Assembly: GCF_000017545.1 (NCBI RefSeq)
Contig: NC_009718.1
Location: 1,302,001 to 1,366,000, forward strand
Length of the DNA: 64,000 nt
DNA from: Fervidobacterium nodosum Rt17-B1
GTDB lineage: Bacteria > Thermotogota > Thermotogae > Thermotogales > Fervidobacteriaceae
Direction of reading: 5' to 3'
Shown: piece after piece, positions 3,669 to 29,751 of the stretch
Numbering within the stretch: position 1 is the first letter of the stretch
Layout: the number at the start of each line of letters is the position of its first letter
Made by a program: the position numbers and the translations under genes
The notes under the pieces: model-generated
The model's input: only the letters and a program-made list of their open reading frames with translations
Told to the model about the DNA's origin: nothing
The model's database searches: none

Positions 3669-3712
3669 TCTATAATCCCCCCAATCTGTAAGTAGTGCTA
3701 ACATTCAATAAC

Positions 3713-3736
3713 ATTATACCACAATTGTGGTATAAT
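3713..3736. promoter_or_regulatory. Back-to-back -10 elements in a perfect 24-bp palindrome
   Basis: The sequence from ATTATACCACAA to TTGTGGTATAAT is a perfect inverted repeat. Each end reads TGGTATAAT outward, an extended -10 element: TATAAT at 3731-3736 on the plus strand for panB and at 3713-3718 on the minus strand for pepF. No good -35 is seen on either side. It may be just two opposed promoters, or an operator shared by them. Confidence 0.6.
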
Positions 3737-3787
3737 TATAAAATAATGAAATCATTTGGAATTGAAGCACTATTGGAGGTGAAATTT

Positions 3788-4573
3788 ATGATTAATACAA
3801 AAAAGATAATAGATATGAAAGGAAAAGAACCAATAACTATGATAACTGCATACGACTATCCAACCGCAAGAATCGCTAGTGAAGCAGGAATAGATATAAT
3901 CCTTGTTGGCGATTCGTTGGGTAACGTTATACTTGGTTACGATAGTACTATCCCAGTAACGATGGAAGATATGTTAATGCACATAAAAGCTGTGAGAAGA
4001 GGCGCGCCAGATGCGTTTATAGTTGGTGATATGCCGTTTTTATCCTACGAAATTAGTCCAGAAAAAGCTGTTGAAAATGCTGGCTTAATGTTAAAAGCTG
4101 GTGCAAATGCTATAAAGTTGGAAGGCGGAGAGCCATATGCTGAAACGATAAGGCGTATAATCAATGCTGGAATACCCGTAATGGGGCATTTAGGCTTCAC
4201 GCCCCAATCTGTAAATTTATTAGGTGGACATAAAGTTCAAGGAAAGACTCCCGAGAGCCGTGAAAAACTCTTAAAAGATGCAAAAATACTCGAAGAAGTG
4301 GGGTGTTTTTCGATAGTACTCGAGCTTGTTGTAGAACAAGTAGCAAAAGAGATTACAGAAAATGTAAAAATACCTACCATAGGCATAGGAGCTGGTAGGC
4401 ACTGTGATGGACAAGTATTGGTATTCCACGATATTGTTGGATTAACCACCATGGATTTAAAATTTGTAAAAAGATACGCAAATACATACGAGATAATGCT
4501 AAACGCGGTTAAATCTTACAAAACCGAAGTCAAAAACAAGGTTTTCCCGAGTAAAGATAATATATTTGAATGA
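3788..4573 (+). CDS. panB: 3-methyl-2-oxobutanoate hydroxymethyltransferase
   Basis: A 261-residue PanB, the first committed enzyme of pantothenate and coenzyme A synthesis: it transfers a hydroxymethyl group from methylene-tetrahydrofolate to ketoisovalerate. Visible motifs are MITAYDYPTARIASEAGID near the start, the metal-binding VGDSLGNV with Asp near residue 45, KLEGGE near 115, GHLGFTPQS near 137 and IPTIGIGAG near 200. An upstream in-frame extension is ignored because GGAGGTG (3775-3781) sits just before the ATG at 3788. It is a single gene, convergent with the minus-strand operon whose last gene ends 23 bases away. No panC or panD is nearby. Confidence 0.95.
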   Translation: MINTKKIIDMKGKEPITMITAYDYPTARIASEAGIDIILVGDSLGNVILGYDSTIPVTMEDMLMHIKAVRRGAPDAFIVGDMPFLSYEISPEKAVENAGLMLKAGANAIKLEGGEPYAETIRRIINAGIPVMGHLGFTPQSVNLLGGHKVQGKTPESREKLLKDAKILEEVGCFSIVLELVVEQVAKEITENVKIPTIGIGAGRHCDGQVLVFHDIVGLTTMDLKFVKRYANTYEIMLNAVKSYKTEVKNKVFPSKDNIFE

Positions 4574-25257: not shown

Positions 25258-25917
25258 TTGCATTGTAAAATAGCAATAGACGGCCCCGCTGGATCTGGAA
25301 AGACCACTGTTGCCAAGCTAATTGCTCAAAAGCTTGGAATTGACTATTTAGACACTGGAGCTATGTACCGTATTGTCGGGTTGTATTTGCATAGCATTGG
25401 CGTAGAGCCGAAATCTACAAGTATTAAAGACATTCTGGAAAAAGTTAACATAGAATACATTGGTAAAGATTATTATTTGAATGGAAAAAAAGTGGGCGAT
25501 GAAATAAGAACACCGGAAGCAGGAATGTTTGCTTCACAGTACGCAGCTAATCCAGAAGTTAGAGAATTCCTTACAAAAATACAAAAGCAAATATGCAGTA
25601 ACAGAAGTATCGTTGCAGAAGGCAGAGATATAGGGACCGTAGTCATGCCTGATGCAACAGTAAAGATTTTTCTCGTAGCTTCGCCTGAAGTTCGCGCGAG
25701 ACGAAGGTACGAGGAACTAAAATCCAAGAACATGGAAGTTAGCTACGAAGAACTATTAAGACAAATTGAAGAAAGAGATAAAAACGATTCTAACCGTGAT
25801 GTGGCACCGCTTGTAAAAGCTCCAGATGCTATAGAAATAGATACATCAAATTTGAGCATAGAAGAAGTTGTTGAAAAAATTTTAGATATTGTAAAAGAAA
25901 GGTGCAGAATAAAATGA
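25258..25917 (+). CDS. cmk: (d)CMP kinase
   Basis: A 219-residue cytidylate kinase that phosphorylates CMP and dCMP. Walker A IDGPAGSGKTTVAK is at about residues 7-20; LDTGAMYR near 33, AEGRDIGTVVMPDA near 120 and RDKNDSNRDVAPLVKAPDA near 170 are the family motifs. TTG start: a stop codon lies three codons upstream in frame, and AGGAGG is at 25241-25246. The gene overlaps the start of ispH-S1 as ATGA, so the two are coupled. Confidence 0.95.
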   Translation: MHCKIAIDGPAGSGKTTVAKLIAQKLGIDYLDTGAMYRIVGLYLHSIGVEPKSTSIKDILEKVNIEYIGKDYYLNGKKVGDEIRTPEAGMFASQYAANPEVREFLTKIQKQICSNRSIVAEGRDIGTVVMPDATVKIFLVASPEVRARRRYEELKSKNMEVSYEELLRQIEERDKNDSNRDVAPLVKAPDAIEIDTSNLSIEEVVEKILDIVKERCRIK

Positions 25918-28478
25918 GTAATGAAACAAATAAAGTGAATTTAGAAATTATAGTTGGCCAATATGGCTTTTGTTTTGGTGTTGATAATGCTGTTAGAGAG
26001 ATAATAGACCACTTAAATAAAGGCGAAAACCTCTTTACTGATGGCGAAGTTGTACACAATAAAAATGTTCTTGAAGAATTGAAAAGACTTGGTTTGAAGT
26101 ACTCACCTCAAGAAAATGGTACTTTTGTTGTAAGGGCACATGGTCTGCCACCTGAAAAGTTGAATGAAATATCAAAAAATTACAAAGTTATCGATTTGAC
26201 ATGTCCAATTGTTCAGAATCTTTTTGCTCTTGGAAAGAAATTATCAAAAGAAGGATACAAAGTTGTAGCTTTTGGAAAGAAAGATCATGCAGAAATGGTA
26301 GCTTTTGCCGGACATGTAAAAAATTCTTTAGTTACTACTGAACCATTACCCTTGCTAGACAATAAAATAGCAATAATTAGTCAAACAACAAGCTCTAGCG
26401 AAAAATTTGCTTTGTTTATTGAAGAAATGAAAAAATTAAACAAAGGTAAAGAGATAAAAGTCATAAACACAATTTGTAAAGTCACCATTGAAAGAGAAGA
26501 ACAAGCAAAAAAGCTTGCCCAAATTTGTAATTTCGTTGTTGTCGTTGGAGGTAAAAATAGCTCAAATACCAAAAAACTATTTGAGATAGCATATAACTAT
26601 GGCAAAGCTGTACATATAGAAAGCATCAATGAAATTAACGAAATAGAAGAAATGTTGTTTAGAGAAAAATCAAAAGATATCCAAACCATCAAAATAGGTT
26701 TAATAAGTGGTACATCTACATATTCTAAAGATGTCGAACACATCTTAAAGTATCTTGTAAAAAACTACGGTGGGAGGGAACTTTACATGGAAGATTTAAA
26801 CAACTTAAAACAAGAAGTCTTGGAGGAATCTTTTGAACAGCTATTAAAAGAACATGAAAACATGAATCAAGTGGGAAGGGGAAAGATTGTTGAAGGTATC
26901 GTAACAGAAATTACACCCACGGGACTAACAATTGACCTTGGTGGAAAGGTAACAGGAGTTGTTCCTTTAGAAGAACTTTTCAAAGAACTTAATGAATATA
27001 AAGTTGGTGAACAAATCAAAGTTAGAGTTGAAAAAATTAACGAAGAAGATGGAACCGCTATCCTTTCCGCAAAGAAACCTATGGAAAAGATAATATTTGA
27101 TGAAATACAAAAAGCAAAAGAAAATGGAAAACCAGTAAGTGGAAAGATAATCGAAAGAATAAAAGGTGGATACAGGGTCATCCTCGAAAATGTTGTTGAA
27201 GCGTTCTTGCCCGGTAGTGAATCAAATATAAGAGAAGATGAAGAAATACCAAGAGAAAAAATGCAATTTGCCGTAATTTCTTACGAAACACGTGGTAGAA
27301 AAACAAATATCGTTGTTTCAAGAAAAAAACTTTTCCAAAAACTTATAGACGAATTCTTCTCAAATAGAAAACCGGGCGATGTAGTCGAAGGAATAGTCGA
27401 ATCTATTTCTGATAATGGCGCATTTGTAAAAATCGCGGGTATAACAACGGGCTTCATACCAAATAGCGAAATATCTTACAACACATCAATTAAAGCCAAA
27501 GATGCTTTGACCGTTGGGAAAATTATGAAGTTCTTAATCAAGGAAATAAATCCTGAAAGAAAAAGAATACTTTTAAGTCTTAAAGCACTATTACCTGATC
27601 CTTGGGAAAACGTTGCTAAAAAATACCAGATTGGTCAAACTGTTACCGGAGTTGTAACATCAGTAAAACCTTTCGGCTTTTTCGTGAAAATTGAAGATGG
27701 TGTTGAAGGCTTCGTACCTATTGAAGAAGTTTTCTGGGGAAGAAAAGGGAATATAAACGAAGTCGTTAGCATCAACGATTTTGTCAAAGTTCAAATTTTA
27801 GAAATTAACCCAGAGAAACGTCAAATGAAACTTAGCTACAAAAGTGTTATCGGAGATCCTTGGGAAAAAATAGCTAAGAAATTATCCGAAGGAGATATAA
27901 GCGAAGGCAAAGTAGCAAAAGTACTTCCGAATGGTGTAATTATAGAAATCGAACCTGAAGTAACCGCATTTTGCAATATTTCTGAAGTTTCTTGGAATTT
28001 TGTCGATAACATCGAAGATGTAATAAAAGAAGGAGAAAGTGTAAAATTCCAAGTACTCAAAATCGATCCAGAAAATAAAAAAATCCGCGTTAGCATACGT
28101 AAAGCCAAGCCAAACCCTTGGAAAGCATTTGCCAATGCTCATAAAGAAGGAGACATTATTAAAGTAAAAGTAATAAAAGCTGTAGAAAAAGGTTACATAG
28201 GTCTTTGTGAAGAAATAGAAGTGTACATTCCGAAATCACAAGTTTACGAAAATTTAAATTTGGGCGATGAAATAGATGGTAAAATAATTAAGCTTGAAGA
28301 GCAAAAAGATATTTACAAAATTATCGTTAGCCCAAAAGCATACGAAAACTCACTGGCAACTAATAAAAATGAATCGAAAGACTTTGAAGGAGTAACGTTG
28401 GAGGGAAAAATTTCTGATGCAAACGCCGTCAGTGAAGAAAAACAAAATACCAACAGTTATTTTAGTAGGGAAGAGTAA
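25914..28478 (+). CDS. ispH: IspH (HMBPP reductase) fused to six S1 RNA-binding domains
   Basis: An 854-residue fusion. Residues 1-285 are 4-hydroxy-3-methylbut-2-enyl diphosphate reductase, last step of the MEP isoprenoid pathway, with its three iron-sulfur cysteines at 20, 97 and 188 and the VVHNK and RAHG histidine motifs. From about 315 to 825 there are six S1/OB repeats, as in ribosomal protein S1. Such fusions are known in Thermotogae and Clostridia. The ATG at 25914 overlaps the cmk stop. In the linker, an in-frame ATG at 26787 (residue 292) has GGGAGGG eight bases upstream, so a free S1 protein may also be made. Confidence 0.95.
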   Translation: MSNETNKVNLEIIVGQYGFCFGVDNAVREIIDHLNKGENLFTDGEVVHNKNVLEELKRLGLKYSPQENGTFVVRAHGLPPEKLNEISKNYKVIDLTCPIVQNLFALGKKLSKEGYKVVAFGKKDHAEMVAFAGHVKNSLVTTEPLPLLDNKIAIISQTTSSSEKFALFIEEMKKLNKGKEIKVINTICKVTIEREEQAKKLAQICNFVVVVGGKNSSNTKKLFEIAYNYGKAVHIESINEINEIEEMLFREKSKDIQTIKIGLISGTSTYSKDVEHILKYLVKNYGGRELYMEDLNNLKQEVLEESFEQLLKEHENMNQVGRGKIVEGIVTEITPTGLTIDLGGKVTGVVPLEELFKELNEYKVGEQIKVRVEKINEEDGTAILSAKKPMEKIIFDEIQKAKENGKPVSGKIIERIKGGYRVILENVVEAFLPGSESNIREDEEIPREKMQFAVISYETRGRKTNIVVSRKKLFQKLIDEFFSNRKPGDVVEGIVESISDNGAFVKIAGITTGFIPNSEISYNTSIKAKDALTVGKIMKFLIKEINPERKRILLSLKALLPDPWENVAKKYQIGQTVTGVVTSVKPFGFFVKIEDGVEGFVPIEEVFWGRKGNINEVVSINDFVKVQILEINPEKRQMKLSYKSVIGDPWEKIAKKLSEGDISEGKVAKVLPNGVIIEIEPEVTAFCNISEVSWNFVDNIEDVIKEGESVKFQVLKIDPENKKIRVSIRKAKPNPWKAFANAHKEGDIIKVKVIKAVEKGYIGLCEEIEVYIPKSQVYENLNLGDEIDGKIIKLEEQKDIYKIIVSPKAYENSLATNKNESKDFEGVTLEGKISDANAVSEEKQNTNSYFSREE
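26772..26789 (+). promoter_or_regulatory. Internal ribosome binding site and start for a free S1 protein
   Basis: GGGAGGG (26772-26778) lies eight bases before an in-frame ATG (26787-26789), exactly at the junction between the IspH domain and the first S1 repeat. The position and spacing are those of a normal start, so a 563-residue S1-only product is plausible. Inference from sequence alone. Confidence 0.5.
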
Positions 28479-29751
28479 CGTTGGTAAATCAACCCTTTTT
28501 AATAAACTCGTTGGAAAAAGAAAATCAATAGTAGCAGATGAAAATGGTACAACCAGAGACGCGGTCGTAGACCGCGTCGTTTGGTATGATAAGACATTCC
28601 AATTAGTTGATACTTGCGGTATTTTTGAAGGAAAAAACGATGAAATTTATGAAAAAAGCAAGGAAATAACTATAAAATCACTTTCAGAAGCAGATTTAGT
28701 CATCTTTGTGGTCGATGGAAGGAAAGGGCTTTCTTCAGAAGATTACACAATAGCTGACTTGATTAGAAAATCAGGGGCGGAGGTTATTTTGGCCGCCAAT
28801 AAAGTTGAAAATGAAAAAATTTATCAGAAAAATCTTCCGGATTTTTTTTCATTAGGTCTTGGCGAACCGTTTCCAGTTTCAGCTGAGCAAAGTAGGAATC
28901 TTGATGAACTTATAGAAACAATCATTAATAAACTTACATCAAAAGGTCTTGAATTAACTGCCAGTGAATACGACGAAAATATAATAAGAGTAACGTTAGT
29001 TGGAAAACCAAATGCAGGTAAATCTTCTCTTTTCAATATGATTGTAAAAGAAGAGCGGGCTTTGGTAACACCTATCGCTGGTACTACGCGGGATATAATA
29101 GATGAAATAGTTCAAATAAATAACAAAAATTATTTGTTCGTTGATACTGCGGGATTAAGGAAGAAAAGTAGAATAGAGGATTTTATTGAACGTGTAAGTA
29201 CAATGAGAACAATTGATTCAATAGAACGATCCGATGTTGTTGTACTTGTTATAGACGCTACAGAAGGTATAACTCGACAAGACCAAAGAATAGCAGGACT
29301 TGCCGAAAAAAACGGAAAAGCCACCGTTATTGTTTTCAACAAATGGGATTTAGTTAAACACGCAGACAAAAGAGTTAAGGAATACCTAGATCAAGTAAAT
29401 GAGAAATTGTATTTTATAGATTATAGTCCTGTAGTATTCACAAGTACCGTCAGCAAAGTTGGTTACAAAGAGCTTATAAACGCTATAAACAAATCATACG
29501 AGTCGCTGCACAAAAGAGTTCCAACAAGTGCCATAAATTCTGCAATTCAGAGAATGATTATAAAACCACCACATGGTTTAAAATTGTACTACGGATTACA
29601 AGTTGATATAAGACCTCCTACATTTCTTTTCTTCGTAAACAAAACTGAAGTACCAGAGAGTTTTCAAAATGCAATTAGAAGAACAATCAGAGAAAATATA
29701 GAGCCATTCGTTGGCGCACCGATATTTTTAAAATTCAAAGAAAGAGAATAA
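28417..29751 (+). CDS. der: Ribosome biogenesis GTPase Der (EngA)
   Basis: A 444-residue tandem GTPase that matures the 50S subunit. The first G domain has GKSNVGKSTLFN near residue 18, DTCGIFEG and NKVEN. The second has GKPNAGKSSLFN near 195, DTAGLRKKSRI and NKWDL. The C-terminal KH-like domain ends the protein. The first P-loop reads GKSN where GRPN is common. The ATG at 28417 lies 62 bases inside the ispH-S1 frame, with GGAGGG at 28400-28405; a GTG at 28432 is an alternative start. The overlap suggests coupling to S1 translation. Confidence 0.96.
   Translation: MQTPSVKKNKIPTVILVGKSNVGKSTLFNKLVGKRKSIVADENGTTRDAVVDRVVWYDKTFQLVDTCGIFEGKNDEIYEKSKEITIKSLSEADLVIFVVDGRKGLSSEDYTIADLIRKSGAEVILAANKVENEKIYQKNLPDFFSLGLGEPFPVSAEQSRNLDELIETIINKLTSKGLELTASEYDENIIRVTLVGKPNAGKSSLFNMIVKEERALVTPIAGTTRDIIDEIVQINNKNYLFVDTAGLRKKSRIEDFIERVSTMRTIDSIERSDVVVLVIDATEGITRQDQRIAGLAEKNGKATVIVFNKWDLVKHADKRVKEYLDQVNEKLYFIDYSPVVFTSTVSKVGYKELINAINKSYESLHKRVPTSAINSAIQRMIIKPPHGLKLYYGLQVDIRPPTFLFFVNKTEVPESFQNAIRRTIRENIEPFVGAPIFLKFKERE

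Follow-up and report, generated by a model that had tools for sequence, protein, structure and literature searches.

CcmM35 of cyanobacteria is a C-terminal proteoform that arises from an in-frame internal start. The same route leads from a type I-B cas gene of archaeal origin to its C-terminal proteoform Cas11b (PMC11899642). Over 400 'Rosetta stone' fusions of IspH with RPS1, mostly from Firmicutes and carrying 4 or 6 S1 domains, have been described (Rao et al. 2015, PMC4746011), and the fusion is also found in Fusobacteriota (PMC4746011, PMC5348791). These fusions (NCBIfam NF000907) share the protein architecture of the Fervidobacterium nodosum gene considered here, but were read by Rao et al. 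as one bifunctional protein, whereas the reading developed below calls for two products. A term search for 'internal' in PMC4746011 found no occurrence, and no internal start is mentioned there. Recombinant IspH-RPS1 was purified via an N-terminal tag (PMC4746011), so that an internally started S1 would not be retained. A two-dimensional gel report of a LytB/S1 protein in Fusobacterium states no spot mass in its text, and the open-access literature searched yielded no earlier account that mentions an internal start for the fusion gene.

The stretch analysed here (the window) comprises 64,000 nt of the F. nodosum Rt17-B1 genome, and all positions refer to it. Within this window a single frame very probably encodes two proteins, the IspH-S1 fusion and free S1, the start of the latter being the ancestral start of rpsA that now lies inside the fused gene.

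The fused gene and its domain junction

The fusion ORF (Table 1) translates into a product of 854 aa (96.1 kDa) in which the CFGV, TCP and TIC cysteine motifs as well as KNSSNT are all found. It is the sole ispH and the sole rpsA found on searching the genome, which rules out a second copy of either gene elsewhere. The whole product scores 840.8 bits against NF000907 (bifunctional IspH/S1, also PRK00087; cut-off 624), and its IspH domain 209.2 bits against the IspH model TIGR00216 (cut-off 187.85). Against the stand-alone rpsA model TIGR00717 it attains 346.9 bits, below the cut-off of 577 despite a near-complete span of the model; the fusion model NF000907, and not TIGR00717, is the right model for this ORF. 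Coverage of the rpsA model nearly end to end implies six S1 domains.

Table 1. Features of the ispH-rpsA locus (positions in the 64,000-nt window)
Feature	Position	Strand	Remarks
cmk-like gene, upstream	25258..25917	+	name from sequence
candidate SD of ispH start, AAAGGTG	25898..25904	+	-9.1 kcal/mol
ispH-rpsA fusion ORF	25914..28478	+	ATG 25914 to TAA 28476-28478; NF000907 match
IspH (LYTB) domain	25953..26756	+	residues 14-281
internal SD, GGGAGGG	26772-26778	+	-12.6 kcal/mol with the anti-SD of this genome; kept in relatives
internal in-frame ATG, codon 292	26787-26789	+	aligns with the S1 N-terminus at unfused Thermotogota loci
predicted free S1, 563 aa, 63.4 kDa	26787..28478	+	translation from internal ATG
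S1 region	26826..28310	+	residues 305-799 against rpsA model TIGR00717 (model 1-509 of 516)
der/EngA-like GTPase gene, downstream	28417..29751	+	name from sequence

The original prediction had noted a GGGAGGG eight bases before an in-frame ATG at residue 292, placed at the domain junction, and this is confirmed by the coordinates together with the LYTB and TIGR00717 matches. The former ends at residue 281 and the latter begins at 305, and M292 therefore lies between the domains, with a spacer of 8 nt to the SD (9 nt counted from the GGAGG core). The genome's own 16S 3' end reads GGATCACCTCCTTTCT, and its pairing with the internal SD is canonical. In strength this SD holds rank 2 among the 733 in-frame internal ATG/GTG/TTG codons of the window, and the codon at rank 1, ATG 3788, is likely to be the true start of a panB gene and hence not really internal. 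The panB-like ORF itself (3695-4573) is probably over-extended, its likely start at that ATG being preceded by a very strong SD (-15.2 kcal/mol). Synonymous reshuffling of the F. nodosum fusion gene with its own codon usage reaches the observed SD strength in approximately 1.5% of draws. Local folding at 37 °C does not find the internal site open (mean unpaired 0.36 vs 0.48-0.50 at control positions in the same gene); at 70 °C the site is unpaired, and the host would be a thermophile, judging from its phylum and gene content. Across a 71-fusion subset the junction site is on average more open than controls at 37 °C (0.54 vs 0.46).

Both ends of the fused gene overlap its neighbours. The TGA stop of the cmk-like gene overlaps the ispH ATG (ATGA, 25914-25917), and the der/EngA-like gene starts at ATG 28417 within the region coding for the S1 C-terminus, a 62-nt overlap, behind SD GGAGGG (28400-28405) with an 11-nt spacer, which makes the operon a chain of overlapping genes.

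The junction in fused and unfused relatives

A search of 103 Thermotogota genomes yielded 96 ispH loci that were read, and in all 96 rpsA lies behind ispH on the same strand. The fusion, expected in Thermotogae and Clostridia, was found in both, as a minority state in the former (16/96 loci, four genera) and as the rule in the latter (121/130 sampled loci). Of the Thermotogota fusions nine belong to Fervidobacterium, two to a neighbouring genus and four to a third genus within the family; the remaining one comes from another family. Two further genera of Fervidobacteriaceae are unfused, their S1 starting behind the same SD in a different frame, as seen by comparing the junction of the fused locus L014, TTAGGAGGGATGCTGCAAATGGAT, with that of the unfused L019, TTAGGAGGGATGCTGGAAAATGGAC. 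In L016 ispH and rpsA share one frame and are separated by a single stop (GGA GGT TGA GTT CTT ATG). The rpsA SD lies inside the ispH coding tail at 58 unfused Thermotogota loci, and at 62 unfused loci over both phyla. Because unfused Thermotogota S1 starts behind the same SD within the ispH tail, the internal site is best read as the old rpsA start, and the fusions are, as far as these sequences tell, the in-frame version of the ispH/rpsA overlap seen in unfused Thermotogota. The two nearest genera supply 11 fusions, all with the string GGG AGG GAA unchanged, although in their fusion genes GGG accounts for only 56/656 Gly codons and AGG for only 73/361 Arg codons. A fusion created by sequencing error is ruled out, the same junction being common to these 11 fusions in two genera.

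Bacillota loci were collected by a scan of genome contigs with a consensus IspH bait (80 loci) and in two group samples, one of 130 Clostridia loci, representing 130 of 137 matching genomes (those omitted were weak or partial matches), and one of 30 loci drawn from the phylum to which a Halanaerobium genome belongs. The bait was a made-up sequence ending in IIKEVIKKM, and no search pattern was drawn from that end. Nearly all Bacillota fusions write the C-terminal helix of IspH as NNG GAG GTN NNN NNN NNN ATG. Among 150 fusions of the two group samples, every K/E/Q residue at the two SD positions has a codon with final G (137/137 and 146/146), whereas the other 36 K/E/Q-rich ispH columns have G-ending fractions of at most 0.50 (median 0.39 over all 38); all these columns have one phylogeny, and kinship is therefore no explanation for the difference. 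The first SD codon may stand for K, R, E, Q, L, G or M, yet it ends in G, with two exceptions (AGA and TCC). In 141 of the 150 the ATG and the GGAGG core are 11 nt apart, and in eight the ATG comes one codon earlier (8 nt). Several unfused rpsA starts have a shorter spacing than this usual 11 nt (in L113 it is 7 nt), which counts against the internal-start reading. The ninth off-pattern fusion, L321, has lost the usual SD codons and carries a different SD, AGGAGGTAGAGGT, further down before its own ATG, as though the site had shifted.

Some Bacillota fusions have a long, often acidic linker of ~60-100 residues after the internal start (L097, L100-L102, L107, L114, L146, L149, L153, L156, L166), which the predicted free S1 would bear as an N-terminal tail. 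Geosporobacter ferrireducens (L110/L111) has the fusion on its chromosome and a copy of the IspH half, stopping ~11 codons beyond the junction, on a 24.6 kb plasmid record.

Counting genomes present in two sets once, the 209 fused loci, in all of which S1 was confirmed in the tail, reduce to 204 distinct fusions (16 Thermotogota, 188 Bacillota). Conservation of the SD-ATG pair in related fusions, on which the original prediction had staked its case, is complete: an in-frame junction start codon with an SD of -10 kcal/mol or stronger is present in 204/204, and none has lost it. Of 4,389 in-frame start-like codons at other positions in these ORFs, only 1.6% reach this strength, and synonymous reshuffling with the protein fixed and each gene's codon usage retained predicts that 19.4 of 204 would reach the observed SD strength. 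The reshuffling and the K/E/Q column control are the fairer tests, since the junction SD is the best of several codons. Measured from the GGAGG core, the start lies at 8-11 nt in every fusion except one, where it is 13 nt away; the corresponding range for the unfused overlaps is 4-11 nt. The position of the start codon is held although neighbouring codons vary. A chance SD-like match is ruled out by the pairing rank, the control codons and the K/E/Q columns. In 110/113 fusions, that of F. nodosum included, no candidate SD at the ispH start pairs as strongly as the internal SD. On an IspH tree the fused/unfused state switches at least 15 times; a sign test on this tree had only seven independent pairs on well-supported branches, with significance out of reach for so few.

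A separate line of evidence comes from relatives in which the frame is broken, four in Bacillota (L242, L254, L290, L324) and five in Thermotogota (L019-L023). In these the ispH tail still carries the SD, and the S1 start follows 9-11 nt behind it in another frame. Their S1 ORF is unreachable from the ispH frame, and thus the site must act as a start there. Some members of this set are draft genomes; the Thermotogota cases recur in five genomes.

Probable origin of the internal start and competing readings

A probable history begins with rpsA behind ispH and the rpsA SD within the ispH tail; both genes would then have come into one frame when the ispH stop was lost or a small indel arose, with the rpsA start retained. 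Initiation at 25914 would now give the IspH-S1 fusion, while ribosomes on the internal SD would start at ATG 26787 and produce free six-domain S1; no free IspH would be expected. The notion that one gene gives both a fusion and a stand-alone six-domain S1, as originally proposed, gains support from the nucleotide-level constraint and from the starts of unfused S1. Initiation at the internal start thus appears to take place in the fused genes, and since the internal SD outdoes that of ispH in strength, free S1 is probably made in excess of the fusion. The supply of S1 would in this way be uncoupled from that of IspH, of which the cell presumably needs less. By extension, the odds somewhat favour the view that the 'bifunctional IspH/S1' gene of Bacillota and Thermotogota is rpsA nested in frame in ispH, with free S1 as its main and the fusion as its minor product.

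Other accounts of the junction must be weighed against this two-product reading. An SD-like stretch could serve as an elongation pause that allows IspH to fold before S1 is made, with no internal initiation, and its location at the domain junction is where such a pause could aid folding. A pause, however, requires no start codon, and yet every fusion retains one, 8-11 nt (once 13) downstream of its SD, and the same SD serves the S1 start in the frame-broken relatives, so that this account is very unlikely. A similarly low probability attaches to the possibility that the SD-ATG pair is a disused relic of a separate rpsA and the fusion the sole product. Thermotogota relatives do show the origin of the pair as the rpsA start, but a relic would be expected to decay at synonymous sites, and such decay is absent in 188 Bacillota fusions across much of Clostridia.

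It is scarcely probable that free S1 is instead released by proteolysis in the linker, or that the fusion performs all the work of S1. The linker following the junction is variable, and long and acidic in some Bacillota, which counts in favour of this account, but cleavage leaves unexplained both the nucleotide conservation of the SD and the fixed spacing of the start codon. Finally, constraint on the protein or on codon usage might set the codons and render the SD match incidental, and conserved residues (GGRE in F. nodosum, KEV in Bacillota) do favour an SD-like string. Nevertheless, the final G persists whichever of seven residues is encoded, and no other of the 38 K/E/Q columns behaves like the two SD codons; protein-level constraint alone was rejected on this column comparison, and practically no weight can be given to this account.

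Implications and relation to known systems

Should free S1 also be made, database annotations of the gene as 'bifunctional' omit a ribosomal protein. A link of IspH to the ribosome, proposed because of its fusion to S1, would likewise lose much of its basis, since it would no longer follow from the gene structure. More generally, a gene pair would be able to fuse repeatedly while its second product retains its own start, suggesting a simple survey of other fused genes for hidden starts.

The unfused ispH-rpsA overlap of Thermotogota resembles the fusion in gene order and, at the 58 loci noted above, in the position of the rpsA SD in the ispH tail, but differs from it in that a stop codon or a change of frame parts the two proteins. 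With Cas11b and CcmM35 the F. nodosum locus would share the use of one reading frame for two products, the shorter being a C-terminal domain that acts alone. Unlike either of them, it would initiate its shorter product where a once separate ribosomal-protein gene began, at a start that, from the sequences compared, seems to have been retained through several fusions in two phyla. Since in-frame internal starts are already known (PMC11899642), the kind of arrangement is a familiar one, while its occurrence in IspH-S1 appears to be new.
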